From: Silvibacterium dinghuense
GTDB taxonomy: Bacteria > Acidobacteriota > Terriglobia > Terriglobales > Acidobacteriaceae
Length of the DNA stretch: 64,000 nt
Direction: 5' to 3'
Assembly: GCF_004123295.1 (NCBI RefSeq)
Contig: NZ_SDMK01000004.1
Coordinates: 62,001-126,000, forward strand
Both the position numbers and the translations under genes were made by a program. This document shows, piece by piece, positions 3,409 through 20,313 of the stretch (positions within the stretch are counted from its first letter, which is position 1; each line of letters begins with the position of its first letter). The notes under the pieces are model-generated. The model was given only the letters and a program-made list of their open reading frames with translations, was not told the DNA's origin and ran no database searches.

Positions 3409-6400
3409 CTAGAAGTTGATACGGCCACTCAGACGCATCGTCCGGTTGACGTTTGACGTCGTCACCACACCGAAGCTGCTCCCCGAATTGATGGTGGTTG
3501 TGGGGTTAGCGAACTGCGGCGTATTGGTAACGTCGAAGGCTTCTGCCTGCAGGTCGAAGGCGACGTTTCCCCGGATCGGGAAACTGCGCTTCAGGCCGGC
3601 ATCGAGGTTGAAGATACCGGGACCACGCACACTGTCTCGGCCGGAATCACCAAAGCGCGGCGCCGTCGAGTTGCTGGAAGAAACCGAGACATACGCAGCC
3701 GGATTCAGATACTGATAGCCGTTTGTCGTCGTCGAAAGATGCTTTCTGCCACTGAATACGGGATCGACACCGGCTACCTGATCTGCGAGTTGCGTATTGC
3801 CGGGAGCATTGAGGTAGCTTCCTGAATCGGTAATGCTCATAGGCGTGCCGCTCACACGGCTGAGAACCGTGCTCAGACGCCAGTTCCCAAGCACGTAGCC
3901 GAGAGCCCCATGCGAGAGATAGGTCTGCCCCTTTCCAAAAGGAAGGTTATAAACCGTCCACCACTGGAAGTTATGCTTGCGGTCGTAGCTGGCAAGTGCC
4001 CAGTTCCGGTTCCAGTATGTGGGATAGGCAAAGATGAGACCATTCGCTTCGCTGTTATCGGCTGCATCCATCGACTTGGAGTAGGTGTAGACCACACCGG
4101 TCGATGCATGCCTGGTTTCCATGCGGGTCAGCTGCAATTGAAGGCCGTTATAGACAGACCCCTGGAAAGGCTGCAGGCTGTTGATGTCGGTATTGTTCGT
4201 ATTCGCGCCGTACGTGGTGTTCAACAGGCGTCCGGTGTTGCCACCTCCTGGGGGCGCAGCATTGATATTCACCGAGCTCTGCTGGCGGATGGAGTGCGTA
4301 CCGACATATCCCGCCGTCACCGTAAAGCGTGCCGGCAATTCACGCTGCACAGTGAGGTTATAGCTCTCGATATAACCGCGGCGGAAATTCTTCGGAATCG
4401 TCACCGTGGATAGATTCTCCGGCAGCGCGAGATATCCCGAAGAGATATCCGGGATCGTAATGGCAGGAATTCCTACCGAAGAAACCACGCTCGGCGTATC
4501 TGCGTTGAGATTTGTCGCAGCCACGTATCCCGTCGCTCCGGTGATGTTCGTCGTGATGCCCGCCGGATAGGCCTGCAGCAGTCCGCGCAGCGTATCCGGA
4601 TCGTCCGTGATCCCGAAACCCGCACGAATCACAGTCTTCTCATCCGCACGATAGGAAAGGCCGAATCGCGGAACGATCATGCCCCATCCATTCGAGGTGA
4701 AAGCGCTGTTAGGAATGCCGCCCTTTCCACCCACCAGGATCGTACCCACGGTATGCGTTCCGTCGGTATCAGTGATGGTCGTTGCAATCGAAGGATCGAA
4801 ACGCACCGTGCCGAAGTGATCGGCAACTGGCAGAGGGTAGTATTCATAACGCAGGCCATAATTCAGCGTCAGCGACGGCAGCACCTGGTACGTATCCTGT
4901 GCATAAAAAGCAAAGGTGGAATAGCGCAGAGCCTCGGGATTGAAGCTCTGGATGCTCTTCTGGTAGTTCTCAGCCTGCCCGAGGAGAAATGAGGCAAATG
5001 AATTCACCGCCGTTGCCGAACCGCCGGAATCAGCCGTGGCGCCGCCACTGAAGATAAACGATCCGCGCGGCGTAGCATAACTCCCCGAACCAGGCTGTAC
5101 GTGGTTGATTGCAGCATGCAGATACTCGCCCCCGAAACGGACGCTGTGATTTCCATGCAGCCAGCTTGCATTGGCGTTGCCCGTGTACTGGTTATCCCGG
5201 AAGGTGAAGGGGCTGCCCGTATTCGCGTTGCCCAGGTTGGCATAAGTCGTGAAGTAGAACCCGGGAATGCCGCCATAGAGCGGGTTCCCGTTATAGTTAG
5301 TCCCCGGAATTCCAAGCGTATTCACGCCATAGTCGCCGAGAGCAATATCCGGAGCCTCTGCTTCGAGTCTCTGCCGTGTGTACCCGGCATTCCAGTCGGT
5401 TGTGAAATGGGAGGTGAAGGCGTGCGTAAAGCCAAGACCCACATTCTGGATGCGTCCCGTTGCCGCACCGGGCTGGCCGCCGTCATACGTGCCGCCGCCA
5501 GGATTCTCTCCAAAGACCTGCGGGTCGGAGATGGTATTCGGCGAGATGCTGTAGTGCCCAAAAAAGCTCGTATTCTGCGACGGGACATACGTGATCTTCG
5601 TGTCATAGTTTTCGCGCAGAAAAGCATTCACCGCGGACCCGAAGTAGTTATTCGTGAGAGCTCCGGCGCCTCCCGTATTCGGAGCGGGAAGATTCTGCAG
5701 CATGATCGACGCGGCCTGCACGATCCGGCTGCTGGGAATCAGGTCATTCGAGAAAGCCGTCTTCCCTGCGCCGCTCGTATTGCCCGTAGCGGGATCATAG
5801 ATCGTGATGCCGGTGCCGCTGAAATCGCCTGCCCGCATCGCCGCGGTAGGAATCGAAAGCGTACCGTTGATCGCCTTATTGACCGAAACGCGGTTGTAAT
5901 CGAAGAAGAAGAAGAGCTTGTCCCGAATGATTGGACCGCCGATCGATCCACCCACCTCGTTGTAAATATTCTTCTGCAGCACACCGGTGCGATTCTGCCA
6001 GGACTGCGCATTGAACTGCGCGATCGAGTTGTATTCCCACGCCGTACCATGCAGAGCATTCGTGCCGCTGCGAACGGTAACATTGATAGCCGAGCCACCG
6101 GCTGACCCCTGCTCTGCATTGAAGCTGCCTGTCACGACATTGATACTGTCGATGCCATCGGTCGGCGGCAGATAAGCGACCAGGTACGGCAGCCACGGAT
6201 ACGCGTCGACGGCTCCGTCGATACGCGTCGTGTTTGTCGCATTGGAGACACCGTTGACGTTCGTTGCCTGCGCGCGCTGAGGATTACCACCCGCAGAATT
6301 CTGCTCGGCTGGCGGTGTTGCGCCGGGCACGATCTTGTACAGGCTCTGGAAGTTGCGCCCCGTAGTCGAGGTCGTGGGCAGTTCCGAGACCTGTTCATTC

Positions 6401-6900
6401 GAAATATTCGAACTCGTCTCGGCGGTCTGTGTCTGCAGCATCGGCGGTGCGGTCGTGACCGAAACTTCCTGTGTCGCGGTTCCAATCTTCAATTGGAAAT
6501 CGACACGCTGCACCGTATTGGCCAGTACAGGGATGCCCTGCTGCTCGGAGGGACCGAATCCCGTAGCCGAAGTCATCACCTTATACGTTCCAGGAGTCAG
6601 ATCGGTGAAGGTGAAGGTTCCATCTGCATTGCTCGTCGTATGCAGCTCAATCCCTTTTTCAACGTTGACCGCAGTCACGGCGGCACCAGGAATTGCAGCG
6701 CCGGTAGGATCGAGGACGCTGCCCGTCATGGTGCCGTACAAAACCTGCGCATAGAGATTTCCAGTGCCGGATAGAAATGCCACAGGAGCAACGACCAACG
6801 GCATGCCTATGGTCAGTGCAAGGCTCATGCGTCCTGCCGCTTTTTTCAAGGACCTTCTTCTCCCATGAGGGCCTTTATTTTTCTGATCTGTCTGCTTCAT
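3409..6900 (-). CDS. TonB-dependent receptor, Oar-like, with carboxypeptidase-regulatory-like N-terminal domain
   Basis: This is a 1,163-residue outer membrane receptor. The ATG at 6900 has GGAG about 6 bp upstream. A basic N-terminus and a hydrophobic segment (LALTIGMPLVVAPVAFL) form an export signal. Residues of about 55-140 make a CarboxypepD_reg-like beta-sandwich (GSVLDPTGAAIPGAAV, GTFTFTDLTPGTYKV), a plug region follows, and the long beta-barrel ends in the hydrophobic C-terminus LSGRINF. Receptors of this class are abundant in Acidobacteria, and many import oligosaccharides through TonB energy. It is transcribed divergently from the sugar-binding sensor at 7126, with a palindromic candidate operator between them. 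The cargo is inferred from neighbours, not from sequence. Confidence 0.88.
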   Translation of the reverse strand: MKQTDQKNKGPHGRRRSLKKAAGRMSLALTIGMPLVVAPVAFLSGTGNLYAQVLYGTMTGSVLDPTGAAIPGAAVTAVNVEKGIELHTTSNADGTFTFTDLTPGTYKVMTSATGFGPSEQQGIPVLANTVQRVDFQLKIGTATQEVSVTTAPPMLQTQTAETSSNISNEQVSELPTTSTTGRNFQSLYKIVPGATPPAEQNSAGGNPQRAQATNVNGVSNATNTTRIDGAVDAYPWLPYLVAYLPPTDGIDSINVVTGSFNAEQGSAGGSAINVTVRSGTNALHGTAWEYNSIAQFNAQSWQNRTGVLQKNIYNEVGGSIGGPIIRDKLFFFFDYNRVSVNKAINGTLSIPTAAMRAGDFSGTGITIYDPATGNTSGAGKTAFSNDLIPSSRIVQAASIMLQNLPAPNTGGAGALTNNYFGSAVNAFLRENYDTKITYVPSQNTSFFGHYSISPNTISDPQVFGENPGGGTYDGGQPGAATGRIQNVGLGFTHAFTSHFTTDWNAGYTRQRLEAEAPDIALGDYGVNTLGIPGTNYNGNPLYGGIPGFYFTTYANLGNANTGSPFTFRDNQYTGNANASWLHGNHSVRFGGEYLHAAINHVQPGSGSYATPRGSFIFSGGATADSGGSATAVNSFASFLLGQAENYQKSIQSFNPEALRYSTFAFYAQDTYQVLPSLTLNYGLRYEYYPLPVADHFGTVRFDPSIATTITDTDGTHTVGTILVGGKGGIPNSAFTSNGWGMIVPRFGLSYRADEKTVIRAGFGITDDPDTLRGLLQAYPAGITTNITGATGYVAATNLNADTPSVVSSVGIPAITIPDISSGYLALPENLSTVTIPKNFRRGYIESYNLTVQRELPARFTVTAGYVGTHSIRQQSSVNINAAPPGGGNTGRLLNTTYGANTNNTDINSLQPFQGSVYNGLQLQLTRMETRHASTGVVYTYSKSMDAADNSEANGLIFAYPTYWNRNWALASYDRKHNFQWWTVYNLPFGKGQTYLSHGALGYVLGNWRLSTVLSRVSGTPMSITDSGSYLNAPGNTQLADQVAGVDPVFSGRKHLSTTTNGYQYLNPAAYVSVSSSNSTAPRFGDSGRDSVRGPGIFNLDAGLKRSFPIRGNVAFDLQAEAFDVTNTPQFANPTTTINSGSSFGVVTTSNVNRTMRLSGRINF

Positions 6901-7032
6901 GCCTCTCTCCAAACCCGCTCCCGGCGGGCGTATTCATGCCGGCTACGCGGGCTCTTTGAGAGCTCTGCACAAGAAATAAGTGCTCTACCCGCTGCGGATA
7001 GGAACATTAGGCAAGCGATGCAAAGACTCGCA

Positions 7033-7048
7033 TGGTACAGATGTACCA
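7033..7048. promoter_or_regulatory. Perfect 7-2-7 palindrome between receptor and sensor genes
   Basis: TGGTACA-GA-TGTACCA is a perfect inverted repeat in the 225-bp gap between the divergent TonB receptor (start 6900) and the sugar-binding sensor (start 7126). The 7-2-7 geometry is the one used by NarL-family response regulators, and such a regulator is encoded at 10255. A LacI-type site would also look similar. Binding is inferred. Confidence 0.45.
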
Positions 7049-7125
7049 ACCCGCAAGCACACATCTCCAGGAGCCAGCAGTGTGTGCCGGTGTATATACT
7101 TTTTCTGCTCTCCGCATATTGGCCC

Positions 7126-8094
7126 ATGCCTAACTTCTGTTTGAGACTGACGCCTCTGCTGCTCGCTGTTATCCCCTTTGCAGCTGGCTGTCATTCGCAA
7201 TCCGACGCGATTGCTGTCATCCCGCGCACCACGGCAACACCGCTATGGGAGCCCATGCATCAGGGCATCGTCGAAACAGCGCGTCAGGACAAGATATCCG
7301 TGTATTGGAATGCGCCGCCCAATGAGGCATACGTAGAGCAGCAGATGGAGCTCTATGCCACGTTGCAGCGGCGCCATTATCGCGGCTTCATTCTCTCTCC
7401 CGACGAGACTCTGGCTGCCCGAACCGCTGTTCAGGAAACCATCGAGCGCGGCGTGCCGGTTGTCATCGTCGATGATGAGCTCGGACCACCTCCCTCACCC
7501 AGGCTCTCCTACGTCCGCAACGACGAAGCGGCGGGCACCATGCTTGCGGCGCAGACCATATCCCGGCTGCTGCATGGCAAAGGTTCCATCGCCATCATCG
7601 GCATCATTCCTCGCTCAGAGGCATCGCTCACGCGCGAAGATGCATTTGAGAAAGCCCTCACGCAGGTAGCTCCCTCCATTCACATCTCGATCCGGCGCTT
7701 CGGAGATACCTTCATCACGCATCAGCAACAGATTGCGCAGGAGGTCCTGACCGGCTCCGAACCGGTAGATGCCATCGTTGCGCTTTCAGGGATCGCCACA
7801 CGCGGCGCATACTATGCCAAGCTGGCCAGTGAACCAAGATCGAAGATCGCGATCGTCGGCTTCGACCAGGATCTGCTGATGCCTCTCGAAACTGGCGATG
7901 TGGATGCAATCATCGCGCAGGACACGCGCACGATCGGACGCATCGCCATGCGCAATCTGGATGCGGAGATCCATCAGGAGACCGTTCCCGGCATTACGCT
8001 GGTATCTCCAATTCTGCTCACCCGCGACAACGTGCAGGCACCGTCCAATCAGCCTCTCTTTTCCTACTCCATCTTCCGCTGGAGCGGCTCGTGA
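7126..8094 (+). CDS. Periplasmic sugar-binding lipoprotein (RbsB-like), sensory partner of the next kinase
   Basis: This is a 322-residue lipoprotein with the signal LLLAVIPFAAGC, a lipobox that predicts lipid-anchoring in the periplasm. The ATG at 7126 places that signal at the N-terminus, although no strong ribosome site is visible. The body reads as a type I periplasmic binding protein: TPLWEPMHQGIVETARQ near the start, GVPVVIVDDEL in the middle, GTMLAAQTISRLLHGKGSIA and IAIVGFDQDLL later. Ribose-type ABC systems use such proteins, but no permease or ATPase is nearby. Instead its TGA overlaps the GTG of a sensor kinase by 4 bp (GTGA), so it probably reports ligand to that kinase, as in ChvE-VirA or XylFII-LytS. 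The ligand is unknown, presumably a sugar. Confidence 0.8.
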   Translation: MPNFCLRLTPLLLAVIPFAAGCHSQSDAIAVIPRTTATPLWEPMHQGIVETARQDKISVYWNAPPNEAYVEQQMELYATLQRRHYRGFILSPDETLAARTAVQETIERGVPVVIVDDELGPPPSPRLSYVRNDEAAGTMLAAQTISRLLHGKGSIAIIGIIPRSEASLTREDAFEKALTQVAPSIHISIRRFGDTFITHQQQIAQEVLTGSEPVDAIVALSGIATRGAYYAKLASEPRSKIAIVGFDQDLLMPLETGDVDAIIAQDTRTIGRIAMRNLDAEIHQETVPGITLVSPILLTRDNVQAPSNQPLFSYSIFRWSGS

Positions 8095-10271
8095 GTCTCG
8101 TCCCCGAAGGAAGAGACTCGTCCCAGCAGCGCCGGATCACTGCGCCAGGTTGGATAGCCGCCGGTGCCGTGCTTCTCCTGTTCGCCGCGCTCGTCACCAT
8201 CAGGCCATGGATGCACTCCATGCACAGCAGGCCTCAGGTGATGAATGGCGGACCAGCCGCGCTGGAACGCGGCACCTGGACAAGCTACGGCAGCACATGG
8301 AGTATGAACGGCAGCCGGCTCGAAAACGCTTCGGAAGAGCGCGGCGCAAGATACATTCTGACCTCGGAAACACAGGCGGACTACCAGATTGAAGCCGATA
8401 TCCACATCACCTCCGCCGATGGAGAAGCTGGACTCGTGCTTCGCTCGCATGGTGAGGAGACGGGCGTCGATGCTTACCATGGCTACTTCGCTGGTGTGCG
8501 CGTCTCTGATGCCACACTCGAATTTGGCCGGGCCGATTTCGGATGGCAAGTGCTGCAACGCATCAGCCTGCCCGCAACACTCGATCTATCGCAGGGATTT
8601 CATCTGCGCGTCGTTGCCATCGGCTGCTCCTTCGGTGTGGAAGTCCGCTCCCCCTCTGGCGTGACGCAGGCGCTCACGACCGCAGACCAGGCGTGTATTG
8701 CGAGCGGACATTCCGGCGTTCGCTCAAACCTGACCAGCGCGGTGTGGGATCATCTCGCAATACGCTCCGCATCGAAAGAAGACCTCGCAGCCCTTCACCG
8801 CGAATCGGCAGGTGCTGTTGCACTTCCCATCGATGTCCCATTCGTTCCCCAGCTCACGGCGCGTTATGAGACCTCGCTTGAAGCCGAAGCCCGCAAGCGT
8901 GCATTACAAGCCGGAGTGCAACCCATCGTGACCTTCCTGATGCAGCCGGGCCGGCATCCGAATGTCACGCTGCAGGGAACGGTCATCTCTCTTCCTCCTC
9001 TGGTCGCCATCCAGGATGAAACCAACGCACTCATCGTGCCGGCCTTCCACTCGAATGCGCCCTTGAAGCTAGGCGATATCGTCCTCGCGCACGGCACTGT
9101 TCTATCGGAGCGCTTCCGCAGCAGCCTCGAGAATGCGGACATCCGCGTGCTCTGGTCCGATCTCGCCGTGCCTCCTCTGGCCGTCACCGCGGCGCAGCTC
9201 ACGGGCGGAACCTATCGCGGACGTGCTATTTCGATCGAAGGCACGCTCGTCTCTACCTCAGATCACGACATCATTCTGCGTGACGGCGATCTGATCTTTC
9301 GCGGCGTCGTTACCGGCTCTACTGCGGATCTCCACCCCCTGGAACGCGGCAGCCGCATACGCCTGCGCGGCATCGCTACCTCACTCGATCAGTACACACA
9401 TGGAACCTATCCCTTTGCTGTCGTCGTGGAACAGGTCGATGTCGTCAGTTCGCCGCCATGGTGGTCGCCACGGCATATTGCCGTGCTTGGACTGACATCC
9501 GTGCTGGTCCTGCTCTTGATTCAGATCGGACTGCACCGCGCGCAGCAATGGCACCTGCAATCGGTGATGAAAGAGCGCGAACAACTCGCCTTTGAGATGC
9601 ACGACACGCTCGCACAGAGCTTTACCGGCATCGCGTACCTGCTCAACGCCGCCATCATGGAGCGGCGCGGAGAAAACAAGATGCAGACTCACGTGCAAAA
9701 CGCTCTCGAGATGGTTCACATCAGCCATCGCGAGGCCAGCCGCACCATCGCTGCTCTTCGCCCGCAACTGCGCGATGCCACCGCGATTCTTGAAGCACTC
9801 GAACAGGTAGCCACGCGTCTGGTTACAGGAGATTCGCCCAAAATCCAGGGACATCTCACCGGACGTGTCACAGCCTTGTCGGTGCAGGTGACCGATGCGC
9901 TGTTCCGCGTCGGGCAGGAGGCAATCAGCAATGCTATCCAGCACAGCGGCTGCACGCAGCTCGAAATCCATCTAGTCCTGCATCGCCGCGAAGCCGCGCT
10001 CACCGTCCACGACAATGGCCGAGGCTTCGACGCCGCGGCGCAGCGTGGCCTCGGCATCACCGGCATGCACAGCCGCGCGGCAAAGGTTCGCGGCCGGCTT
10101 GAAATCCAGTCGGTTCCGCATCGGGGAACGTCCGTCTCCATCGTCGCCCCGCTTCCCTTGGTCAGCGGCCTGCTAAGGCCGCTGTGGCAAAGGATGCGCG
10201 CCTTTCCTTCACGCTCCATTCCACTCGGCAAGCTCGAAACAAGAAGTAAACCTTATGACTACTCACGCTGA
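8091..10271 (+). CDS. Membrane sensor histidine kinase (HisKA_3/HATPase_c) with large extracytoplasmic beta domains
   Basis: This is a 726-residue kinase starting at GTG 8091, coupled to the upstream stop. A first membrane helix lies near residues 20-40 (AAGAVLLLFAALVTI). Next comes a LamG/DUF1080-like jelly-roll (GTWTSYGSTWSMNG, AGLVLRSHGEE, YHGYFAGV), then two OB-fold-like stretches around VTLQGTVISLPP and ISIEGTLVSTSDHD, and a second helix (VLGLTSVLVLLLIQIGL). The cytoplasmic part has the HisKA_3 box FEMHDTLAQSFTGIAYLL with phospho-acceptor His504, then the ATP-binding motifs GQEAISNAIQHSG, HDNGRGFD and GLGITGMHSRA. It phosphorylates the regulator that overlaps its 3' end by 17 bp. The ConA-like ectodomain suggests direct carbohydrate or partner-protein contact, which is inference. 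Confidence 0.9.
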   Translation: MSLVPEGRDSSQQRRITAPGWIAAGAVLLLFAALVTIRPWMHSMHSRPQVMNGGPAALERGTWTSYGSTWSMNGSRLENASEERGARYILTSETQADYQIEADIHITSADGEAGLVLRSHGEETGVDAYHGYFAGVRVSDATLEFGRADFGWQVLQRISLPATLDLSQGFHLRVVAIGCSFGVEVRSPSGVTQALTTADQACIASGHSGVRSNLTSAVWDHLAIRSASKEDLAALHRESAGAVALPIDVPFVPQLTARYETSLEAEARKRALQAGVQPIVTFLMQPGRHPNVTLQGTVISLPPLVAIQDETNALIVPAFHSNAPLKLGDIVLAHGTVLSERFRSSLENADIRVLWSDLAVPPLAVTAAQLTGGTYRGRAISIEGTLVSTSDHDIILRDGDLIFRGVVTGSTADLHPLERGSRIRLRGIATSLDQYTHGTYPFAVVVEQVDVVSSPPWWSPRHIAVLGLTSVLVLLLIQIGLHRAQQWHLQSVMKEREQLAFEMHDTLAQSFTGIAYLLNAAIMERRGENKMQTHVQNALEMVHISHREASRTIAALRPQLRDATAILEALEQVATRLVTGDSPKIQGHLTGRVTALSVQVTDALFRVGQEAISNAIQHSGCTQLEIHLVLHRREAALTVHDNGRGFDAAAQRGLGITGMHSRAAKVRGRLEIQSVPHRGTSVSIVAPLPLVSGLLRPLWQRMRAFPSRSIPLGKLETRSKPYDYSR

Positions 10272-10896
10272 TAAAAAACAGATTCGGCTGCTCCTGGTGG
10301 ATGACCACCCTATCGTGCGTTTCGGGTTGAGTGCATTGCTCGGCATGCAGGAGGACTTTGCCGTGGTGGCAGCAGCCAGCAGCGGGCGCGAAGCACTGGA
10401 CATCCTCAGGCAGAAAACCATCGACATCGTTCTTGTCGATCTCCGCATGCCGGGCTTCTCCGGCATCGACACGCTCGAACAGATCCGCACGCAGGCTCCC
10501 CGCGTGCAGGCCATCGTTCTTTCAAGCTTCGAGTTCGACGAAGAAATTTATGCTGCGGTCAAAGCCGGAGCCAGGGGATATCTCCTGAAAGAATCTCCGC
10601 CGGAAGAGATTATGTCTGCCATTCGCTCCGTCTTTGCAGGCAGGCAGGCCTTCCCGGAGCGCATCGCCAAACGTCTTTCGGAGTCACGCATGACCGCAGG
10701 ACTGAGCGCACGGGAGCGCGAAGTACTGGAGCTGGTCGCCAAGGGCTTAACCAACAAGGAAGTGGCAAACACGCTGCAAATCAGTCAATTCACGGTCCGC
10801 AATCATCTCAATCACATCACCGAAAAGCTCGAGGCGAGCGACCGCACGGAGGCTATCTTCATTGCCATCCACACCGGCCTCATTACCTTGCACTGA
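10255..10896 (+). CDS. NarL/FixJ-family response regulator
   Basis: This is a 213-residue two-domain regulator. The receiver domain (about 1-125) has the acidic pair in LLLVDDHP, phospho-acceptor Asp62 in VLVDLRMPG and the conserved Lys112 in YLLKESPPEE. The C-terminal LuxR/NarL-type helix-turn-helix is clear: LSAREREVLELVAKGLTNKEVA, then ISQFTVRNHLNHI. Its start lies inside the kinase gene (17-bp overlap), so the two are co-translated. It is the obvious candidate to bind the 7-2-7 palindrome at 7033 and control the receptor and sugar enzymes; that target is inferred. Confidence 0.92.
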   Translation: MTTHADKKQIRLLLVDDHPIVRFGLSALLGMQEDFAVVAAASSGREALDILRQKTIDIVLVDLRMPGFSGIDTLEQIRTQAPRVQAIVLSSFEFDEEIYAAVKAGARGYLLKESPPEEIMSAIRSVFAGRQAFPERIAKRLSESRMTAGLSAREREVLELVAKGLTNKEVANTLQISQFTVRNHLNHITEKLEASDRTEAIFIAIHTGLITLH

Positions 10897-10973
10897 CGTG
10901 CGTTCCATGCGCAGACAGCGCTGCCGTACGCAGGCAGAAGAACAGAATCGAACAAATGAACAGGAGAGACTTC

Positions 10974-13084: not shown

Positions 13085-13444
13085 CTACTGCGGAGTTATC
13101 CCCGATTCGAGCTGCGTTGCGCGGTTCGCGGTCTCACGCACGAGACACACGTTATCGACCGTCTCTCCGTTGATCTTGCACTGCGCATCGCGATGCCGGA
13201 TCCAGGCCAGCTCTTCGCTCTTGAGAGATGCTTTCGCATCGGCGGACTGCGCGGCCTTCATCCGTGTCTGATACGCCCGGTTGAGGCGCGCATCCTGAAA
13301 CGTCATTTCCTTCTGCACGCAGATGCCGACCTGAACGGTATTCTGGCGCGCACGCGCGATGCAGCGATCGTAGCGTGGTGAAAGTTGAGCAACGGCACAC
13401 GCGCTGAACAACAGGAGCGCAGCACCAACGGTGATCTTCTTCAT
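13085..13444 (-). CDS. LprI-family (DUF1311) secreted protein, lysozyme-inhibitor-like
   Basis: This is a 119-residue exported protein starting MKKITVGAALLLFSA, with a signal peptide ending around residue 20. The mature part has the DUF1311 pattern: YDRCIARA, ICVQKEM, DARLNRAYQ, EELAWIRHRDAQC and a last Cys at 100. That gives four cysteines (28, 42, 89, 100) placed for two disulfides. The family is named after mycobacterial LprI, a lysozyme inhibitor; many members are uncharacterised. ATG 13444 overlaps the stop of the KASIII-like gene by 4 bp (ATGA), so it is translationally coupled as the last gene of the acyltransferase operon. That coupling suggests a cell-wall protective role, which is inference. 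Confidence 0.8.
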   Translation of the reverse strand: MKKITVGAALLLFSACAVAQLSPRYDRCIARARQNTVQVGICVQKEMTFQDARLNRAYQTRMKAAQSADAKASLKSEELAWIRHRDAQCKINGETVDNVCLVRETANRATQLESGITPQ

Positions 13445-14397
13445 GCGGACACCTCTTCCGGTGTTACGACTTCTGGTGTGGCGAGCAGAGCCCCCCAGTT
13501 CAGCCCTGCGCCAAATGCAGCGAACAGGACTGGGCTCTGGACCGGCCCGGGATTGGCAGAATGCCATTCGGCCGCGGCAATCAACATCGACGCGGAAGAT
13601 GTATTGCCATAACGCCGAATATTGACGAAACAACGCTCCATCGGCAACCCGATAGACTTCGCCACCTTTTCAATCAGGTTCACATTTGCCTGGTGCATGA
13701 GCATGACGCTCAACTCTGCAGACGTCAAGGCGTTTCGCTCGAGCAAGGTTTTGATCGCTGCAGGAATTTTGCGTGCCGCCTGCAGAATGACCGATCCGCC
13801 TTCCATATGCAGGAGCCCGCCCTCCATGCGCAGAATCTCGCAGGCATTGCCATCCGTGGCCAGCAAAGCGTCTTTCAATTTCAAAAAACCTTGATGCGCA
13901 TCGATCAGACATGCACCGGCGCCATCGCCGAAGAGAATGGCCGTATCCCGACCATCCGGCGTCAGTTGCACGCGGCGGCTCATCACCTCGGAAGCCACCA
14001 CCAGCACCTTGCCGGCCGAGGAGGCAAATTGCATGGCGATATGCATGGCGATCAAAGAGCCCGCGCTGGCAACAGGAACATCGAGCGCCAGAATCTGGCT
14101 CAGGCCGAGCCTGGCGGCGACAGAGGCCGCGGGCCCCGGACAGAACCGGTCCGCAGACCCGCTGGCAACGATCAGCATGCCGATTTCCGCAGGTACAACG
14201 CCCGCATTGCGAAGGCAGTCTTCGGCAGCCGCCACGGCCAGAGAAACCACATCCTCATTCTCGGCCGCGTAATGGCGCTCCTCGATACCGCTCTTGGCGA
14301 CGATATCGTCAGCGGTCATATCGACCAGCGCCGCAATCTCCGCGCTGGTCACAACCCGCTCAGGAACATAGGTACCGAAGGCACGCAGATAGCTCAC
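13441..14397 (-). CDS. Ketoacyl-ACP synthase III homologue with Ser in place of the catalytic Cys
   Basis: This is a 318-residue thiolase-fold protein of FabH type, starting at GTG 14397 and overlapping the carrier-protein stop by 4 bp (GTGA). The KASIII frame is complete: TADDIVAKSGIEERH, FGDGAGACL, MLMHQANVNLIEKVAK with His235, and RRYGNTSSAS with Asn265. The nucleophile elbow, however, reads ALDVPVASAGSL, so the Cys of the usual AACSG motif is Ser111 (codon AGC). Condensation needs the Cys in ordinary FabH. DpsC of daunorubicin biosynthesis is a known KASIII relative with Ser here and uses it for acyl transfer. A likely role is moving an acyl group from CoA to the adjacent carrier protein rather than making a carbon-carbon bond. 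The substrate is unknown. Confidence 0.85.
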   Translation of the reverse strand: MSYLRAFGTYVPERVVTSAEIAALVDMTADDIVAKSGIEERHYAAENEDVVSLAVAAAEDCLRNAGVVPAEIGMLIVASGSADRFCPGPAASVAARLGLSQILALDVPVASAGSLIAMHIAMQFASSAGKVLVVASEVMSRRVQLTPDGRDTAILFGDGAGACLIDAHQGFLKLKDALLATDGNACEILRMEGGLLHMEGGSVILQAARKIPAAIKTLLERNALTSAELSVMLMHQANVNLIEKVAKSIGLPMERCFVNIRRYGNTSSASMLIAAAEWHSANPGPVQSPVLFAAFGAGLNWGALLATPEVVTPEEVSA

Positions 14398-14633
14398 GCA
14401 ACACCCTTATTAGCCAGGTAACCCTGTACTTTCTCAATGGTGTCGAACTTGCGCGCCGAAAGATCGCTGTCCGGAATCTTCACGTTGAACTCTTCTTCCA
14501 GACCGCTGACAAAGTCGGGAAGAGCAAAGCTATCCAGCAGGCCCGAATCGAAGAGCGATTCGTCATCCTGGGGTGTAATCGGTTCGCCTGCAACGGCCTG
14601 AAGAACTTTGATGATTCCCGGCTTTGTATCCAT
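14394..14633 (-). CDS. Acyl carrier protein, DltC-like
   Basis: This is a 79-residue carrier, the normal size. ATG 14633 is chosen because GAGAGG lies just upstream and the protein then begins MDTKPGIIKVLQAV. The attachment motif is SLFDSGLLDSFALPDF with phosphopantetheine Ser35. The GLLDS wording, followed by EEEFNVKIPDSDL, recalls D-alanyl carrier DltC more than fatty-acid ACP (usually GADSLD). It lies 58 bp after the SGNH2 stop and overlaps the KASIII-like start, so both should be made together. It is the presumed acyl donor to the MBOAT protein encoded first in the operon, by analogy with DltC-DltB. No adenylating enzyme such as DltA is present here. Confidence 0.88.
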   Translation of the reverse strand: MDTKPGIIKVLQAVAGEPITPQDDESLFDSGLLDSFALPDFVSGLEEEFNVKIPDSDLSARKFDTIEKVQGYLANKGVA

Positions 14634-14691
14634 AATTTCCCTCTCTAACTCCGTCATTTTCCAGTCTGCGACCACGCATAACTACCTATAA

Positions 14692-16431
14692 CTAATAGTC
14701 CTGAATGGTGCCTCGTTTTACAAACCCGTCGTAGCTCGACATGACGTCCGCAAACAAGGCGTCTGCCAGCACACGATACCCGGTGCCTGTTAGATGCGTG
14801 TGATCCGGTTGTGCATAACCTGCCGCAACCCAGCGCTGCATGGAGCCAAATCCTCCCTGCCGGGCGCTCCAGTCCCAGAAGGCGCAGTGATGCGTGCGGC
14901 AGACCTCGCGCTGAGCATCGATAATTCTTTCCGTTCCCGTATACGGGACATACGCCCTCCGCTGGATACGCCGCCCCCTGCGTCCGATTACATAGCTCGA
15001 CCTTGCGATGGCCCGGTCTCCCGGCCCCAGCACCAGGATGGAGGCATCCGGAGAAACCGTGTGCAGGTGATCGATCAGGGTCGCGAAAGAGGCCTGATAA
15101 TCCTCGCGCGTCCAGCTTCCCGCCGCTTCATTCGTGCCATAGGCAAGCACAATCAACTGCGGCGGCCGCGATGCAAGATAGGTATCGAACAGGCTGCGGT
15201 TCCATCGCAGAATCAGAGGAGCCTCCGCTCCGTTGATCCCGATCGCCTCCCAGGTAATACCGGGCTGCAGGGATACGGTGCCAAGAAGCCGAACCGGACC
15301 ATCCCCGATCGTGGTAAAGCTGAAATCGTTGCGGCCGGGCTGGCACGAGAGTGTCACGCTGCCAGCCTGATCGGGCGACGCCGCCGGCGCTGTAGAGGAT
15401 TCCTGCGTCTGCGCATCGGGCGGCTGAGGAGCCTGAGCCGGCGCGCTCTGAACCTGGGCGTTCTGCGTCTGCGTGGCTGCGCTTGTGACAAGAGCGGTAG
15501 GCACCGTCTGCACCGCCTGGCCGTTGTCTGTAACAGTGAATGACCCGCCGCCCTCTCTGCGCAGGAATTGAACATCAAGCGTCCTGCAGTTCACGCTGAG
15601 CGAGGCTGTCTCGCCTGCGCCCTGGGCTTCGATCGCTACGCCGCCCATGCCCAGCAATGCATCGCCCAGCTGCGTAAAGTGGGTGCCGAGCGTAGTCCAT
15701 CCAGCGCTTTGCCCACGTCCTGACCCCAGAATGCGGTAACCGGCAAACGGATGCCCGGCATACGTGAACCCGACACTGGCATCGCCGAAGCGGGACTGCA
15801 TCTGCGACCGCAGCTCTCCGGTAAACATATCGGCTGCCGTATGCGAGTCCCCAAACTGCAGCACGCGCACCGTCTGGCTCCCCTGCGGACCGCCCTGGGC
15901 GCGGAGCGCCGTGAAGAAGTTCTGCAGCGATCCAGCAAAGTGCAGGGCGCTTCCACCATGCGCCAGCCGGTCCTCGACAGACAGAGCAGTCGCTGCTTCC
16001 GGTGAGGCCTGCGCATAGCTCCTTTGCTCTTGCTCCGCAGCCATATCCGGGGCTGGAACAGCCGTCGTATTCCCATCGCCCGTCTCCTGCGGCTGTGGCA
16101 CTGGACGCGCCTGCGGGACCGGCACATACGATTGATACGCCGGAGCGCTGCTCTTCTTCGACGCTCTGGTTTTCGCATGCGCGCCGGAAGACTTCCCCGC
16201 TCCCAGCCTTGCACCCTTCTTCCGGGCAGCCTTCGATCCGGCGGTATGCGAAGAAGCGGTTGTCGATGCCTTCTTTTTATGAGGCGTGGACGTGACCGCG
16301 GACGGAACCGCAGAGGACGCGACCGTAGACAACGCGACCGGGGCCGCGTGGACGGCAGCGCCACCGAATATCGCTGCCGCCAGGGACAGCGCTGCAGTAG
16401 GAGTGAAAAAGAATCGACTCACGGCTCTCAT
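14692..16431 (-). CDS. Secreted SGNH-family acyltransferase/esterase with Lys-Ala-rich linker (second of pair)
   Basis: This is a 579-residue exported protein. ATG 16431 is chosen because it starts a clear signal peptide (MRAVSRFFFTPTAALSLAAA) 4 bp after the preceding stop. Residues of about 35-110 are low complexity and strongly basic (KKKAS, AARKKGARLGAGKS), followed by a Pro-rich stretch. The SGNH core begins with VLQFGDSHTAADMFTGELR near residue 193 and continues with SRFGDASVGFTYAGHP, VLAYGTNEAAG and the Asp/His block YAQPDHTHLTGTGY. A Ser/Pro/Gln-rich insertion sits in the middle. It is clearly related to the upstream SGNH gene. In PatB and AlgX/AlgJ systems such proteins finish O-acyl transfer outside the cell. 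The basic tail may hold it to an anionic wall polymer (inference). Confidence 0.82.
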   Translation of the reverse strand: MRAVSRFFFTPTAALSLAAAIFGGAAVHAAPVALSTVASSAVPSAVTSTPHKKKASTTASSHTAGSKAARKKGARLGAGKSSGAHAKTRASKKSSAPAYQSYVPVPQARPVPQPQETGDGNTTAVPAPDMAAEQEQRSYAQASPEAATALSVEDRLAHGGSALHFAGSLQNFFTALRAQGGPQGSQTVRVLQFGDSHTAADMFTGELRSQMQSRFGDASVGFTYAGHPFAGYRILGSGRGQSAGWTTLGTHFTQLGDALLGMGGVAIEAQGAGETASLSVNCRTLDVQFLRREGGGSFTVTDNGQAVQTVPTALVTSAATQTQNAQVQSAPAQAPQPPDAQTQESSTAPAASPDQAGSVTLSCQPGRNDFSFTTIGDGPVRLLGTVSLQPGITWEAIGINGAEAPLILRWNRSLFDTYLASRPPQLIVLAYGTNEAAGSWTREDYQASFATLIDHLHTVSPDASILVLGPGDRAIARSSYVIGRRGRRIQRRAYVPYTGTERIIDAQREVCRTHHCAFWDWSARQGGFGSMQRWVAAGYAQPDHTHLTGTGYRVLADALFADVMSSYDGFVKRGTIQDY

Positions 16432-16435
16432 TCTT

Positions 16436-18154
16436 CTATTGAGGTCTTTGCGTTGAGTTAGACGAAGCCGCAGAGGAGCCGGCTGCCTCGGGAACGCCGG
16501 ATGCAGGCGCTGGTACCGCCGTGGGTACCGCTCCGTCAGCCGGAGCTCCGACAGCCGGAGCATGGCCAGCCGGAACATGAACCGCGTCTGGAGCCACATC
16601 CGGCACCGCATTTCCGGCCGGTGCGGCCTCCTGCAGTTTCTTCACCGCTGGCGATGGCTTGGGTCGCGGAGCTGCTACGACCGGAGGCCCCTTCAAAGCC
16701 GTTGCCCCGGTCACAATGCCATGAGTCCGCTTCCAGCGATCGTAACCTGCATTCAGGTTCTCCATCAGCAGGTTCGCCACCAGCAATGCGCCAGGCGGCG
16801 TGGGATGGATCAGGTCTGCCGTCATCAATCGTGGCTGCGCCTCGTACCAGCGCCCGACCGTTCCCTCGCCGCCCATCGCATCGTAGGTATCGAAGAATGC
16901 GCACCCATCCTCCGCGGCAACCTTCTTCTGGATCGCTACAATCTGCGGAATCTCGGCCTGCGTGACGATCTCACCTCCCTGGCGGTCGCCACGATCCATC
17001 GGGGACATGATGAGGATCGGAACACCCGGCGCAGCCGCGCGGATGTTCGCAATCGCCATGGTCAATTCCTTCTCCAGCGTGGAAACCAGGCCGCTGAACT
17101 GGCTCTCGTTGGTCCCATAGTTGATCACCACCAGCTGAGGCCGTGCGGCGCGAAGGCTTTCCGTCAGCAGCTTCGGCTCAAAGGTGCGCGACAGAATCGT
17201 CGTCGTCGCGCCGTTCAGCCCCAGCGAGTCGTAGAGCACGCCGCTATGGTTGGTGCGGAAATCCACGCCAAACTGCTTCACCGTTCCACTCGTCACCCTC
17301 AGCGATACCTTGGTCGCGCCCTCCGGTAAAACAACCTGCTTCGTTGCGACAGCCTCTTCCGGAGCATCTGTACTAACCGTCTCGAGCGTGGCGTCGCCCG
17401 CACCGACCGAGAAGCTGCCTCCGCCCGGATACGTCAGATAGTGAACGATCACCGATGCCTGCGGTGCTCCGGTAAGCGTGTACGTCGTGTGCGCACCGGA
17501 AGAACCGGCAAAGACCGCTCCACCCAGCCCATAGCTCCCCTGCTTATATCGGCCGACCCCGGTGGCGTCTTTCTGCGACGACAACCAGCCGCTGTCGGAT
17601 ATCTCCACATGGCGATGGCCGTACCAGGCCCAGGGCTTCGCCGTCAGGTTAAAGCCATACCCCGCATCGCCGAATCGCTCCTGCAACTGCTCCCGCACGT
17701 CGCCTGTAATCAGGTCTGCGGTAGTCGGCGAGTCCCCATAGTGCACAACTGTCACGACTTCCTCGGCACCGGTTTCTACTGCGACAGTTTCGGTAGTGCC
17801 CTTCTCAACCGTGCTCTTCTCTGCTGCGCTCTTCTTCTGTTCCAGCTGCCATAACGCGGCAAAGAACGGGTCCAGCACCAGGTAATCGTCCACCATCACC
17901 GCGCTGATGGCTTCCGGCTGACCCGGCGCACGGCCGGTGGACTGGCGCGCCTCCGCCTGGGGCGGCACCAGCGGCTTCGGCCGCTGCGGCATGTGGTATT
18001 CCCATGCCTGCAGGAAGGTGGAAGGGTTCCATCCCTTGGAGTGGTCGCCATACCAGTGCGCTCCCGCAAGGATGCCCACTGCAACCGCAATCGTCCCTGC
18101 GGCCTTCCACGGAAAACCATGACCGGACTGCGACGTGGGATCAGAATTTGCCAT
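16436..18154 (-). CDS. Membrane-anchored SGNH-family protein of the O-acylation operon (first of pair)
   Basis: This is a 572-residue protein. ATG 18154 (MANSDPTSQS) lies 14 bp inside the MBOAT gene end; a longer upstream reading is possible. A single membrane helix at about residues 18-33 (AAGTIAVAVGILAGAHW) anchors it facing the periplasm. The SGNH core has VVHYGDSPTTADLITGDVR (GDS at 140-142), ERFGDAGYGF, VINYGTNESQFSG and DLIHPTPPG, giving the Ser, Gly, Asn and Asp/His blocks. The last 85 or so residues are Pro-Ala-Val-rich, a flexible tail that could reach through the periplasm. The gene follows the MBOAT gene and precedes its paralogue by 4 bp. A role in moving acyl groups to a surface polymer is inferred from family and context. 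Confidence 0.82.
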   Translation of the reverse strand: MANSDPTSQSGHGFPWKAAGTIAVAVGILAGAHWYGDHSKGWNPSTFLQAWEYHMPQRPKPLVPPQAEARQSTGRAPGQPEAISAVMVDDYLVLDPFFAALWQLEQKKSAAEKSTVEKGTTETVAVETGAEEVVTVVHYGDSPTTADLITGDVREQLQERFGDAGYGFNLTAKPWAWYGHRHVEISDSGWLSSQKDATGVGRYKQGSYGLGGAVFAGSSGAHTTYTLTGAPQASVIVHYLTYPGGGSFSVGAGDATLETVSTDAPEEAVATKQVVLPEGATKVSLRVTSGTVKQFGVDFRTNHSGVLYDSLGLNGATTTILSRTFEPKLLTESLRAARPQLVVINYGTNESQFSGLVSTLEKELTMAIANIRAAAPGVPILIMSPMDRGDRQGGEIVTQAEIPQIVAIQKKVAAEDGCAFFDTYDAMGGEGTVGRWYEAQPRLMTADLIHPTPPGALLVANLLMENLNAGYDRWKRTHGIVTGATALKGPPVVAAPRPKPSPAVKKLQEAAPAGNAVPDVAPDAVHVPAGHAPAVGAPADGAVPTAVPAPASGVPEAAGSSAASSNSTQRPQ

Positions 18155-19520
18155 ACACGAACCCCGCGGAGCCTTGCCCGGCCAGAAACTCAATTGCGAT
18201 CACGATCCCTGCCAATGCCACACCCTGAGCCCAGAAAGGCATCGCATCCGCCAGCTTCGCGGAGCGGTCAAACCAATCCTGCGGAATGCAGTGCGCCAGC
18301 ACGGCAAACACCAGGACACCGGCGACAGGAAGGGTCACATTCTCCATGCCCCAGGTATGCGAACCGATCTGCTTCAAAACGACAATCGCCCCGGGAAGAT
18401 CGGCAGCGCGGAAGAAGATCCAGGAAAAGCACACGAAGTGGAAGGTCAGAAGAGCCCCGGCAATCCGTCCCGGCAGCGACCCCACCCGTTTCGCTCCACG
18501 CTTCTTCCGCCACACGCTCCACAGGTAGAAAAGCCACAACCCCGTTCCATGAATGGCACCCCAGATCAGAAAGTTCCAGGTGATGCCATGCCAGAGTCCA
18601 CCCAGGAGAAACGTGACCATGAAGGCATAGGCATAGGTAACAGAGGGAAACAGCCGGCTCTTCGGCAGGGACTCGAACAGGTAATCCGTCAGCCAGGAAG
18701 AAAAACTGATGTGCCAGCGTTTCCAGAAGTCCTGCAGGTTCACGGAAAGGTAAGGAGTGCGGAAGTTCTCCGGGATGGACAGGCCGAGCAGCATGGCCAC
18801 GCCCATGGCGATATCGGTGTAGCCCGAGAAATCGAAGAAGAGCTGTAGAGCATAGCCATACACCGCCAGCAGGTTCTCGAACCCGCTGTAGAGCGCCGGC
18901 GTATCGAAGACTCGGTTCACAAAGTTGTTCGCCAGATAATCGGCGACCAATAACTTTTTGACCAGTCCGGTCGCAATCAACAAAAACGCCGTTGCGGCCG
19001 CCGGCTGCGTGAGCCGGAACGGCTCCCGCAGCTGCTTCAGCAGCTTGTGCATGCGGGGGATCGGACCGGCCACGATGACCGGAAAAAACATCGCTCCAGC
19101 CCAATATCGAAGTAAATTTGCTTCCGCCTTTCCTTCGCCGCGGTACAAATCGATGGTGTAGCTAAGTGCCTGAAAACAATAAAACGACAGGCTGAGGTGG
19201 AAGAGCCACCCCCACCGGAAATGCGGTGCCAGGGGTATCAGCTTCTGTCCCAGAAGGAGGCCGATATTGAGTAAAAGCGATAAAATGACAAGAATGCGCC
19301 GGGTTGTCTGGCTGCCTGTGCGGGTCAGCCCGAGTCCAACGGCCCAGTCGATGGACGCAGCAACGGGCACCAGCAGATAGACGGGGCCAAATTTTGCCAG
19401 AAAGGCGAGGTTGGCCAGCAACAACAACACGATCTGGAAGCTGCGATGTCTCGCCAGCAACCAGTACAGCCCACAAATAACAAGAAAGAAGACGAAGAAA
19501 ACCGAAGAGCTCAGGGACAT
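18141..19520 (-). CDS. MBOAT-family membrane O-acyltransferase (AlgI/DltB/PatA-like)
   Basis: This is a 459-residue protein with about ten hydrophobic segments. ATG 19520 (MSLSSSVFF) is chosen because MBOAT proteins of this group start with this kind of segment; a start at 19586 would add a polar N-terminus. Diagnostic blocks are SFYCFQALSYTIDLYRGE, FFPVIVAGPIPR, LQLFFDFSGYTDIAMG, NLQDFWKRWHISFSSWLTDY and GGLWHGITWNFLIWGAIHG, which holds the conserved catalytic His311. Homologues pass acetyl or D-alanyl groups across the membrane to alginate, peptidoglycan or teichoic acid. It is the first gene of a six-gene unit with two SGNH proteins, a carrier protein, a KASIII homologue and an LprI homologue. 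The polymer acceptor cannot be read from sequence. Confidence 0.9.
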   Translation of the reverse strand: MSLSSSVFFVFFLVICGLYWLLARHRSFQIVLLLLANLAFLAKFGPVYLLVPVAASIDWAVGLGLTRTGSQTTRRILVILSLLLNIGLLLGQKLIPLAPHFRWGWLFHLSLSFYCFQALSYTIDLYRGEGKAEANLLRYWAGAMFFPVIVAGPIPRMHKLLKQLREPFRLTQPAAATAFLLIATGLVKKLLVADYLANNFVNRVFDTPALYSGFENLLAVYGYALQLFFDFSGYTDIAMGVAMLLGLSIPENFRTPYLSVNLQDFWKRWHISFSSWLTDYLFESLPKSRLFPSVTYAYAFMVTFLLGGLWHGITWNFLIWGAIHGTGLWLFYLWSVWRKKRGAKRVGSLPGRIAGALLTFHFVCFSWIFFRAADLPGAIVVLKQIGSHTWGMENVTLPVAGVLVFAVLAHCIPQDWFDRSAKLADAMPFWAQGVALAGIVIAIEFLAGQGSAGFVYGKF

Positions 19521-19674
19521 ACAGCCACGCTTGTTCGAGAATACGTGCTCGACTTCAATTCGAGTAGCTCGGCAAGAGGGATACATCGTGGCGGGTAACT
19601 AATGCATCACACCCCCCAGCGTTTTATAAGGATCTCGTCTCGCAGGTATTCGATTGATTCGCACCAAAACCAGG
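19521..19674. promoter_or_regulatory. Divergent promoter region between the acylation operon and rlpA-like gene
   Basis: This 154-bp gap separates two divergently transcribed units and must hold the operon promoter and probably that of the RlpA-like gene. A TTATAA-like box lies near 19624-19629, but no convincing paired -35 was found, so no exact promoter is claimed. Confidence 0.35.
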
Positions 19675-20313
19675 ATGGGACTGGTTGACACCAATTCGCC
19701 CGCAGACCACAGTGCTTCGGCACTGCAGCCTTATCAGGAAGATTCGTCCTCCATGGCGCGCTTCCGTAACACTGTTTCCCGTCAGTATCGGCGTCTGCTC
19801 CAGCACCCCCGGCTTCTTATCGGGATGGGTGCGTTCGCGATCGCTGGCACTGGCTCAGCGGGCACGATGGCATACTACCTGCGCCCTGTCGAGCCGCTCC
19901 CCGCATCGATCTCCACGACGCAGTACATGCAGGCCACCGTGTCGGCCCAGCAGGCGCTCATGGCGCCGCCCAAAAGCACGCATAAGAGCTTCAACCCGCT
20001 CCGCGGACTGGCTTCCTGGTATGGCTCCGTGCTGCATGGGCACACCACGGCATCGGGCGAAGTCTTCGATGAATCCCAGATGACTGCCTGCCACAACAGC
20101 CTGCCATTCGGGACACGCGTGCGCGTAACCGATCTGAACTCCAATAAGTCCGTCGTTGTCCGTATCAACGACCGGGGTGTTCTCTCGAGCGGCCGCATCA
20201 TTGACCTCTCCTCTGCCGCAGCCGAGAAACTCGGCATCCTGCGAGCCGGCATTGCCAGGGTCAAGCTCGAAGTGCTCGGCACACCGGCACACCCGGACCC
20301 GGGCAAGAGCTAG
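19675..20313 (+). CDS. rlpA: RlpA-like double-psi beta-barrel protein (septal ring lytic transglycosylase family)
   Basis: This is a protein of about 212 residues with an N-terminal cytoplasmic or leader part, one hydrophobic segment (LLIGMGAFAIAGTG) and a C-terminal RlpA domain: GLASWYGSVLHGHTTASGEVFD, MTACHNSLPFGTRVRVTDLNSNKSVVVRINDRG and GRIIDLSSAAAEKLG. The Asp and His positions conserved in RlpA are in RINDRG and CHNSLP. There is no SPOR domain, unlike Pseudomonas RlpA, and no lipobox. Characterised RlpA cuts naked glycan strands during division. Starts at TTG 19654, ATG 19675 or ATG 19753 are all possible; none has a strong ribosome site. It is divergent from the putative O-acylation operon, so two cell-wall functions share one intergenic region. 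Confidence 0.8.
   Translation: MGLVDTNSPADHSASALQPYQEDSSSMARFRNTVSRQYRRLLQHPRLLIGMGAFAIAGTGSAGTMAYYLRPVEPLPASISTTQYMQATVSAQQALMAPPKSTHKSFNPLRGLASWYGSVLHGHTTASGEVFDESQMTACHNSLPFGTRVRVTDLNSNKSVVVRINDRGVLSSGRIIDLSSAAAEKLGILRAGIARVKLEVLGTPAHPDPGKS

Follow-up and report, generated by a model that had tools for sequence, protein, structure and literature searches.

A candidate carrier-fed, Pat-like envelope O-acylation gene set conserved in Acidobacteriota

Positions 13085-19520 of a 64,000-nt stretch of the Silvibacterium dinghuense genome (hereafter the window; contig C4:62001-126000, from an assembly of 9 contigs and 5.1 Mb) hold six minus-strand genes, five of which probably constitute a Pat-like system for O-acylation of the cell envelope, in which a 3-ketoacyl-acyl carrier protein synthase III (KASIII) would load a DltC-like acyl carrier protein (ACP) that in turn feeds an MBOAT membrane acyltransferase. 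We put the probability of this reading at about 0.58, on the basis of gene content, gene order, co-occurrence, motifs, catalytic residues and fold matches. An initial annotation, made from the letters of the DNA, had described the six genes with their families, overlaps and gaps, and coordinates and Pfam cut-offs reproduce them exactly:

18141-19520, minus strand: MBOAT membrane acyltransferase, 459 amino acids (PF03062, 87.5 bits, over the curated Pfam cut-off)
16436-18154, minus strand: SGNH1, predicted membrane-anchored, Ape1-like, 572 amino acids (Lipase_GDSL_2, PF13472, 66.6 bits); 14-bp overlap with MBOAT
14692-16431, minus strand: SGNH2, predicted secreted, Ape1-like, 579 amino acids (PF13472, 45.7 bits); 4-bp gap to SGNH1
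14394-14633, minus strand: DltC-like ACP, 79 amino acids (PP-binding, PF00550, 31.6 bits); 58-bp gap to SGNH2
13441-14397, minus strand: KASIII with a GTG start (ACP_syn_III, PF08545, 51.9 bits, and PF08541, 84.4 bits); 4-bp overlap with ACP
13085-13444, minus strand: LprI-domain gene (PF07007, 53.7 bits, cut-off 22); 4-bp overlap with KASIII

Promoter-like sites (one found, 1.7 expected) and terminator-like sites (six found, 6.2 expected) occur at about the expected numbers.

The first five of these genes recur together in other genomes. When genome contigs were scanned for the KASIII, 52 loci were obtained, 51 of them bearing Acidobacteriota titles, and a further four came from a family survey (56 loci); gene order was counted over those 44 whose upstream flank is 5 kb or longer. 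The order MBOAT-SGNH1-SGNH2-ACP-KASIII on one strand is found in 27/44, and two loci have the complete set except for a detectable ACP (L059) or a detectable MBOAT (L057). KASIII stands with SGNH2 and ACP in two loci (L045, L088), with ACP alone in 11, and with neither SGNH nor ACP beside it in two (L036, L037). Rearranged clusters are also seen, in other families: SGNH2-MBOAT-SGNH1-ACP-KASIII at L175, L176 and L177, and ACP-KASIII convergent with SGNH1-MBOAT-SGNH at L131 and L132; at L129 SGNH1 is present and then the contig ends, and at L130 an MBOAT lies 3.7 kb downstream. Judged by gene order, MBOAT, SGNH1, SGNH2, the carrier and the Ser-type KASIII are a real five-gene module of Acidobacteriota. 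The gene set is thus conserved beyond its source genome for five of the six families: these recur in order in the 27 loci, whereas LprI recurs in 0/85.

By genome content, the association of the carrier and KASIII with MBOAT and SGNH also survives REARRANGEMENT. ACP-KASIII without an SGNH neighbour occurs in 12 named genomes (those of the 11 loci with ACP alone, among them G385, the genome of L083, and that of L090); SGNH1 is encoded elsewhere in ten of the 12, and also in G288. The unlinked SGNH1 loci that were fetched have MBOAT, SGNH1 and SGNH2 together in 10/10; a contig end truncates one of the MBOATs, and one SGNH1 is split in two. Across 396 genomes of the phylum, the Ser-type KASIII (E < 1e-100) is found in 12, all with Ser, and SGNH1 (E < 1e-100) in 15, 11 of these being among the 12 (Fisher p = 2e-17, kinship uncorrected). 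The 18 next-best KASIII loci examined read Cys in 17 cases and Gly, in that alignment, in one; at L115 the nucleophile position is Gly in one alignment and Cys in the tree alignment. The other four SGNH1 genomes (G178, G189, G395, G442) have a carrier beside SGNH1 and MBOAT, plus a Cys-type KASIII that lies nearby except in G395, where it is on a different contig. Weaker SGNH1 matches (E 2e-54 to 2e-45) in G419, G423 and G443 fall outside the 15; L181 (G423) has an MBOAT together with SGNH proteins, and at L180 and L182 the SGNH proteins stand alone. Conserved order, rearranged clusters and unlinked co-occurrence together bear out the proposal that carrier and KASIII belong with MBOAT and SGNH. 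In the family survey the Ser-type KASIII was found in 5/120 genomes, and its distribution is therefore patchy. Outside Acidobacteriota, the KASIII was found at E <= 1e-80 in none of the 240 genomes searched from the phylum to which the genome of L090 belongs; this search was made without a positive control, and the broken KASIII of L090 itself falls short of the threshold. L090 is a 4.4 kb contig labelled Opitutia that may be stray.

The MBOAT ends in the hexapeptide FVYGKF (18144-18161), an instance of the FxYxxF acyl-shuttle motif with Tyr456 as its tyrosine. The motif ends 32/32 MBOAT homologues (two partial genes) and 23/23 in further loci, and His311 is kept in 30/30 rows that reach that position. 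An excerpt of PMC12148441 describes FxYxxF as an acyl shuttle in DltX and PatA, with acylation of the Tyr, and the presence of the motif here is in keeping with the role of acyl-passing enzyme first given to the MBOAT. At E <= 0.01, the sequence matches of the MBOAT in the PDB are to DltB only. The carrier has its phosphopantetheine serine at Ser35 (codon 14529-14531) and its best PDB matches are DltC; its best NCBIfam model is also DltC (NF003464), at 43.9 bits, below the cut-off of 68. DltC contacts DltB via Met36, Val39 and Glu40, according to the available part of PMC11035591, and at these sites the carriers of the set have Phe36 (52/52 rows that extend to it), Pro39 (30/52) and Asp40 (51/52, the other Glu).

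The KASIII has Ser111 (codon 14065-14067) at the FabH Cys position, as the initial annotation had it, with His235 and Asn265 retained in the alignments, so that the FabH triad Cys-His-Asn is changed in its first member; apart from the broken L090, every row checked has lost Cys and kept the His-Asn pair. Its best matches are FabH, and the predicted model (mean predicted local distance difference test score, pLDDT, 93.4) matches E. coli FabH at a template modelling (TM) score of 0.92. In a quick-search tree of 115 rows (68 with Ser, six module proteins with Cys from four genomes, and 41 other FabH; L090 left out, with long branches for L036, L037, L074, L102, L103 and L176) each of the three groups lies on one side of a branch, with approximate likelihood ratio (SH-aLRT) supports of 99, 96 and 99; position 111 itself decides which rows are in the Ser group, and the tree adds that they fall to one side of a branch. 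Cys-His-Asn is the triad of FabH-like priming enzymes and Ser-His-Asp that of DpsC in the available text of PMC12664062, while that of PMC9573744 gives the DpsC triad as Ser-His-His and those of CerJ and ChlB3 as Cys-His-Asp. Ser-His-Asn, as aligned here, is a third combination, neither that of FabH nor that of DpsC. DpsC self-acylates and then passes acyl groups to its ACP, as an excerpt of PMC12664062 has it, and transfer from coenzyme A (CoA) to the carrier is likewise the likely reaction of the present KASIII. At position 86 of the pocket (aligned with E. coli Phe87), Phe is found in 60/68 rows, Cys in seven, including the window, and Ser in one; since Phe87 alone is insufficient to fix specificity (PMC12664062, in part), we conclude nothing on the acyl group from the KASIII pocket.

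We postulate that the KASIII would take a short acyl group from acyl-CoA on Ser111 and hand it to the phosphopantetheine arm of the carrier, which, by analogy with DltC and DltB, would dock in its loaded state on the cytoplasmic face of the MBOAT. The MBOAT, through its motif, could then move the acyl group to its own Tyr456 on the outer side, from where Ser142 of the anchored SGNH1 would transfer it to a wall polymer, most likely peptidoglycan, and the secreted SGNH2, as the closer relative of Ape1, may take it off again. Overall, this would be a PatA-PatB-Ape1-like way of working with a Dlt-like carrier feed, the KASIII replacing the DltA ligase. In its full form, i.e., an Acidobacteriota counterpart of Pat that is carrier-fed, with a Ser-His-Asn KASIII, a DltC-like carrier, a shuttle MBOAT and an Ape1-like pair working on and off peptidoglycan, the proposal is tentative, and we hold it at slightly less than an even chance.

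Both SGNH proteins are of the Ape1 type with an inserted binding domain, and both are closest in the PDB to Ape1, a peptidoglycan O-acetylesterase, by sequence profile and, for SGNH1, also by modelled structure. The catalytic residues are Ser142, Asn349, Asp447 and His450 in SGNH1 and Ser196, Asn434, Asp543 and His546 in SGNH2, and the Ser/Gly/Asn/Asp/His set is kept in 36/36 rows of SGNH1 (Ser in 35, one gap) and in 39/40 of SGNH2, one gapped. The SGNH1 model (mean pLDDT 76.6, linkers low) matches Ape1 4k3u at a Z score of 38.1 over 344 residues, with which Foldseek agrees, and Campylobacter Ape1 at Z 34.5 and 34.0, the next fold following at 17.0; no PatB entry was recognised for SGNH1 among the matches listed. 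In profile matches to 4k3u, SGNH2 is the closer of the two (E 2e-51, against 5e-27 for SGNH1). By hydrophobicity and inspection by eye, SGNH1 has a hydrophobic anchor (helix 16-36) at its start, and the start of SGNH2 looks like that of a secreted protein and leads into a Lys/Ala-rich stretch. From these features SGNH1 is likely the transferase and SGNH2 likely the esterase, so that of the SGNH pair first thought to place the acyl group together, one member would keep that role as an anchored enzyme, whereas the other is more likely a soluble esterase. The Lys/Ala-rich stretch (about 16145-16285, after the predicted signal peptide) has similar counterparts in many SGNH2 homologues and may bind an anionic polymer.

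A possible second pointer to the wall is a neighbour of the operon:

19654-20313, plus strand: RlpA-like (DPBB) gene, outside the core module, divergent from the operon (PF03330, 84.5 bits; TIGR00413, 137.3 bits)

An RlpA-like gene is divergent in 7/85 related loci (L034, L042, L122 and L125-L128), which belong to the family of the window and to Granulicella, L042 and L126 being close kin in the tree; L082, titled Acidobacteriaceae, has too little flank for this neighbour to be scored. It is a possible link to peptidoglycan. In Neisseria, the lytic transglycosylase LtgA complexes with Ape1 (PMC7083599, in part). Because of the Ape1-like folds, the RlpA-like neighbour and the LtgA-Ape1 complex, we consider peptidoglycan the most likely acceptor, with odds a little above even, and the wall polymer that was first suggested as target agrees with the resemblance to an enzyme acting on peptidoglycan. 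Alternatively, the acyl group may go to a polysaccharide that is secreted or lies on the surface, and the likeness to the Ape1 fold would then be a shared SGNH-plus-binding-domain design; a fold match does not reveal the substrate, and some lone ACP-KASIII pairs lie near sugar-nucleotide and glycosyltransferase genes. This alternative deserves to be taken seriously, though we think it the less probable: SGNH1 is far nearer to Ape1 (Z 38.1) than to polysaccharide esterases (17.0), two proteins are Ape1-like, the conserved set is without a polymer-synthesis gene, and the RlpA-like gene adjoins the set in the window's family.

The His-Asn pair serves decarboxylation in FabH. Its retention (His235 and Asn265) while Cys is lost would suit a KASIII that decarboxylates malonyl-ACP, the carrier having been malonylated by the housekeeping FabD, and so provides acetyl-ACP for the MBOAT. 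We regard this as unlikely, as one would expect the Cys-His-Asn sisters to go on to condensation instead of ending at acetyl-ACP, and DpsC, a natural Ser-type enzyme, uses acyl-CoA (PMC12664062, in the available part). It is more doubtful still that carrier and KASIII belong to another pathway, of lipids or metabolites, and lie by chance or for co-regulation beside an ordinary MBOAT-SGNH set fed by acetyl-CoA: the lone ACP-KASIII loci (11/44) and the two divergent KASIII genes without an ACP neighbour would fit, but the conserved order, several rearrangements and the unlinked co-occurrence speak against it. Lipid or polyketide genes were also considered as the proper company of carrier and KASIII and rejected, no such family being recurrent beside them on neighbour clustering, in which not every neighbour was annotated; in the neighbours looked at, the two genes are not mainly with lipid or polyketide genes. 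The least probable reading, a working condensing enzyme that gives the polymer a 3-ketoacyl or derived ester, has in its favour the FabH-like His-Asn pair, the fold match to FabH and Cys-type sisters within the same gene set, and is very improbable given a Ser nucleophile and a conserved set with no dedicated reductase or dehydratase gene.

Several observations weigh against KASIII loading of a carrier that feeds the MBOAT of a Pat-like system. The KASIII keeps the FabH pair His235/Asn265, unlike the Ser-His-Asp of DpsC, and malonyl-ACP decarboxylation or condensation may therefore be retained; sister clusters of the gene set keep Cys; and in CerJ, a KASIII-like acyltransferase, C116S abolished transfer (PMC9573744, in part). 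With five MBOATs compared on the DltB model (166-200 bits), two others from the genome are about level with that of the set, and one MBOAT that has no carrier neighbour shares the Arg found opposite DltB Lys312; carrier use by the MBOAT of the set thus rests on gene association, and DltB likeness was rejected as proof of it. The MBOAT that has no carrier neighbour bears the shuttle motif too, which so marks the class rather than the use of a carrier. The block II Gly is retained in both SGNH proteins (Gly315 and Gly401), unlike in PatB; S. aureus OatA retains this Gly and yet transfers (PMC9487903, in part), so that the kept Gly is compatible with a transferase role. The polymer itself is read from fold similarity and one neighbour gene. 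Lastly, SGNH1 is absent in 5/28 genomes with the Ser-type KASIII: G038 and G021, in which the KASIII is divergent and has no ACP neighbour; G213, which has an MBOAT; the genome of L074, in which another MBOAT adjoins ACP-KASIII; and that of L090, in which the KASIII is frame-broken.

Among known systems, PatA-PatB-Ape1 of Neisseria and Campylobacter shares with the present set an MBOAT with a C-terminal FxYxxF shuttle and one anchored SGNH protein (as PatB) beside a secreted one (as Ape1), but differs in that a carrier and a KASIII are present here, and in that SGNH1 matches Ape1 and has Gly in place of the block II Ser/Asn of PatB. The Dlt system (DltA, B, C, D and X) is similar in its small carrier, to which ours is nearest, in its DltB-related MBOAT and in what we presume to be thioester-fed acylation. 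Here, however, no DltA ligase was found among the operon and the scanned flanking genes, to which that search was confined, the shuttle peptide is fused to the MBOAT rather than a separate DltX, the SGNH proteins are Ape1-like and the carrier is below the DltC cut-off. DpsC, the priming ketosynthase of daunorubicin, resembles our enzyme in its KASIII fold, Ser nucleophile and adjoining ACP, and differs in its triad (Ser-His-Asp or Ser-His-His by source, against Ser-His-Asn with Asn265). The alginate O-acetylation system AlgI-AlgJ-AlgX has one MBOAT and two SGNH-like proteins, as here, and is not known to have a carrier or KASIII; the SGNH proteins of the present set match Ape1 instead.

A second carrier-and-MBOAT set is present in the same genome, on contig C1 (L039:5928-10932):

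5928-6167: ACP
6293-8224: FkbH-domain protein (281.7 bits, cut-off 146.65)
8128-9492: SGNH protein, with a weak AlgX match
9496-10932: MBOAT, ending IVYKAF

Its genes suggest that this set, too, may be fed by a carrier, with a different loader.

According to the available part of a 2025 paper (PMC12148441), Dlt is the one MBOAT/SGNH pathway that has a carrier such as DltC, and by gene content the five-gene set is a counter-example to this carrier-less rule. We did not find the five-gene combination described in the open-licence PMC literature, among the matches listed. The parts are known, and this way of feeding an MBOAT/SGNH machine would be the new element. A conserved carrier and KASIII in a Pat-like set would mean that carrier feeding of MBOATs is a broader principle, with swappable loading enzymes (the DltA ligase, KASIII and possibly FkbH), and that the acyl group need not be acetyl. 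The natural Ser-His-Asn KASIII beside Cys-type sisters would make the role of the nucleophile testable within homologues of one pathway. The set also points to a new wall modification in a common soil phylum, in which an isolate, Granulicella aggregans M8UP14 (L042), carries it.

The sixth gene appears to stand apart. LprI, by its PF07007 domain a putative lysozyme inhibitor, had first been counted as part of the system, to which a possible lysozyme resistance was ascribed; membership is contradicted by its absence beside the module elsewhere: it is beside the module in 0/85 related loci by tblastn at E <= 0.01 (some loci overlap or are half of a split module) and in 0/13 other module genomes by Pfam profile. 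A Pfam match to LprI occurs anywhere in 5/13 of the latter, three over the cut-off, and among the 14 module genomes that of the window is the only match beside the module. As it is not recurrent by either method, we rejected LprI as a module member; by these comparisons it is a local addition outside the conserved module.

Some further neighbours of the KASIII genes were seen. The Ser-type genes without an ACP neighbour at L037 (9405-11933) and L036 (5469-6404) are divergent, the former with a gene for a PMT_2-type membrane protein upstream. At L074 (10942-14816), ACP-KASIII is convergent with another MBOAT, which ends in FLYFKF and is flanked by two proteins that share a cluster in the neighbour clustering and have no Pfam match at E <= 0.001. 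At L061 (11004-14255) the module is followed by a pair of DUF3857 proteins, of which one has a transglutaminase core, and DUF3857 proteins follow the module in some other loci as well (L060, L063, L066, L076 and L081). Lone ACP-KASIII pairs (L049, L069, L072, L078, L083, L086, L087 and L089) lie near varied envelope genes, their neighbours, some of them named by eye, including glycosyltransferase/GT2, RmlA-like, flagellin, GDP-fucose-synthase-like and sugar-transferase genes.

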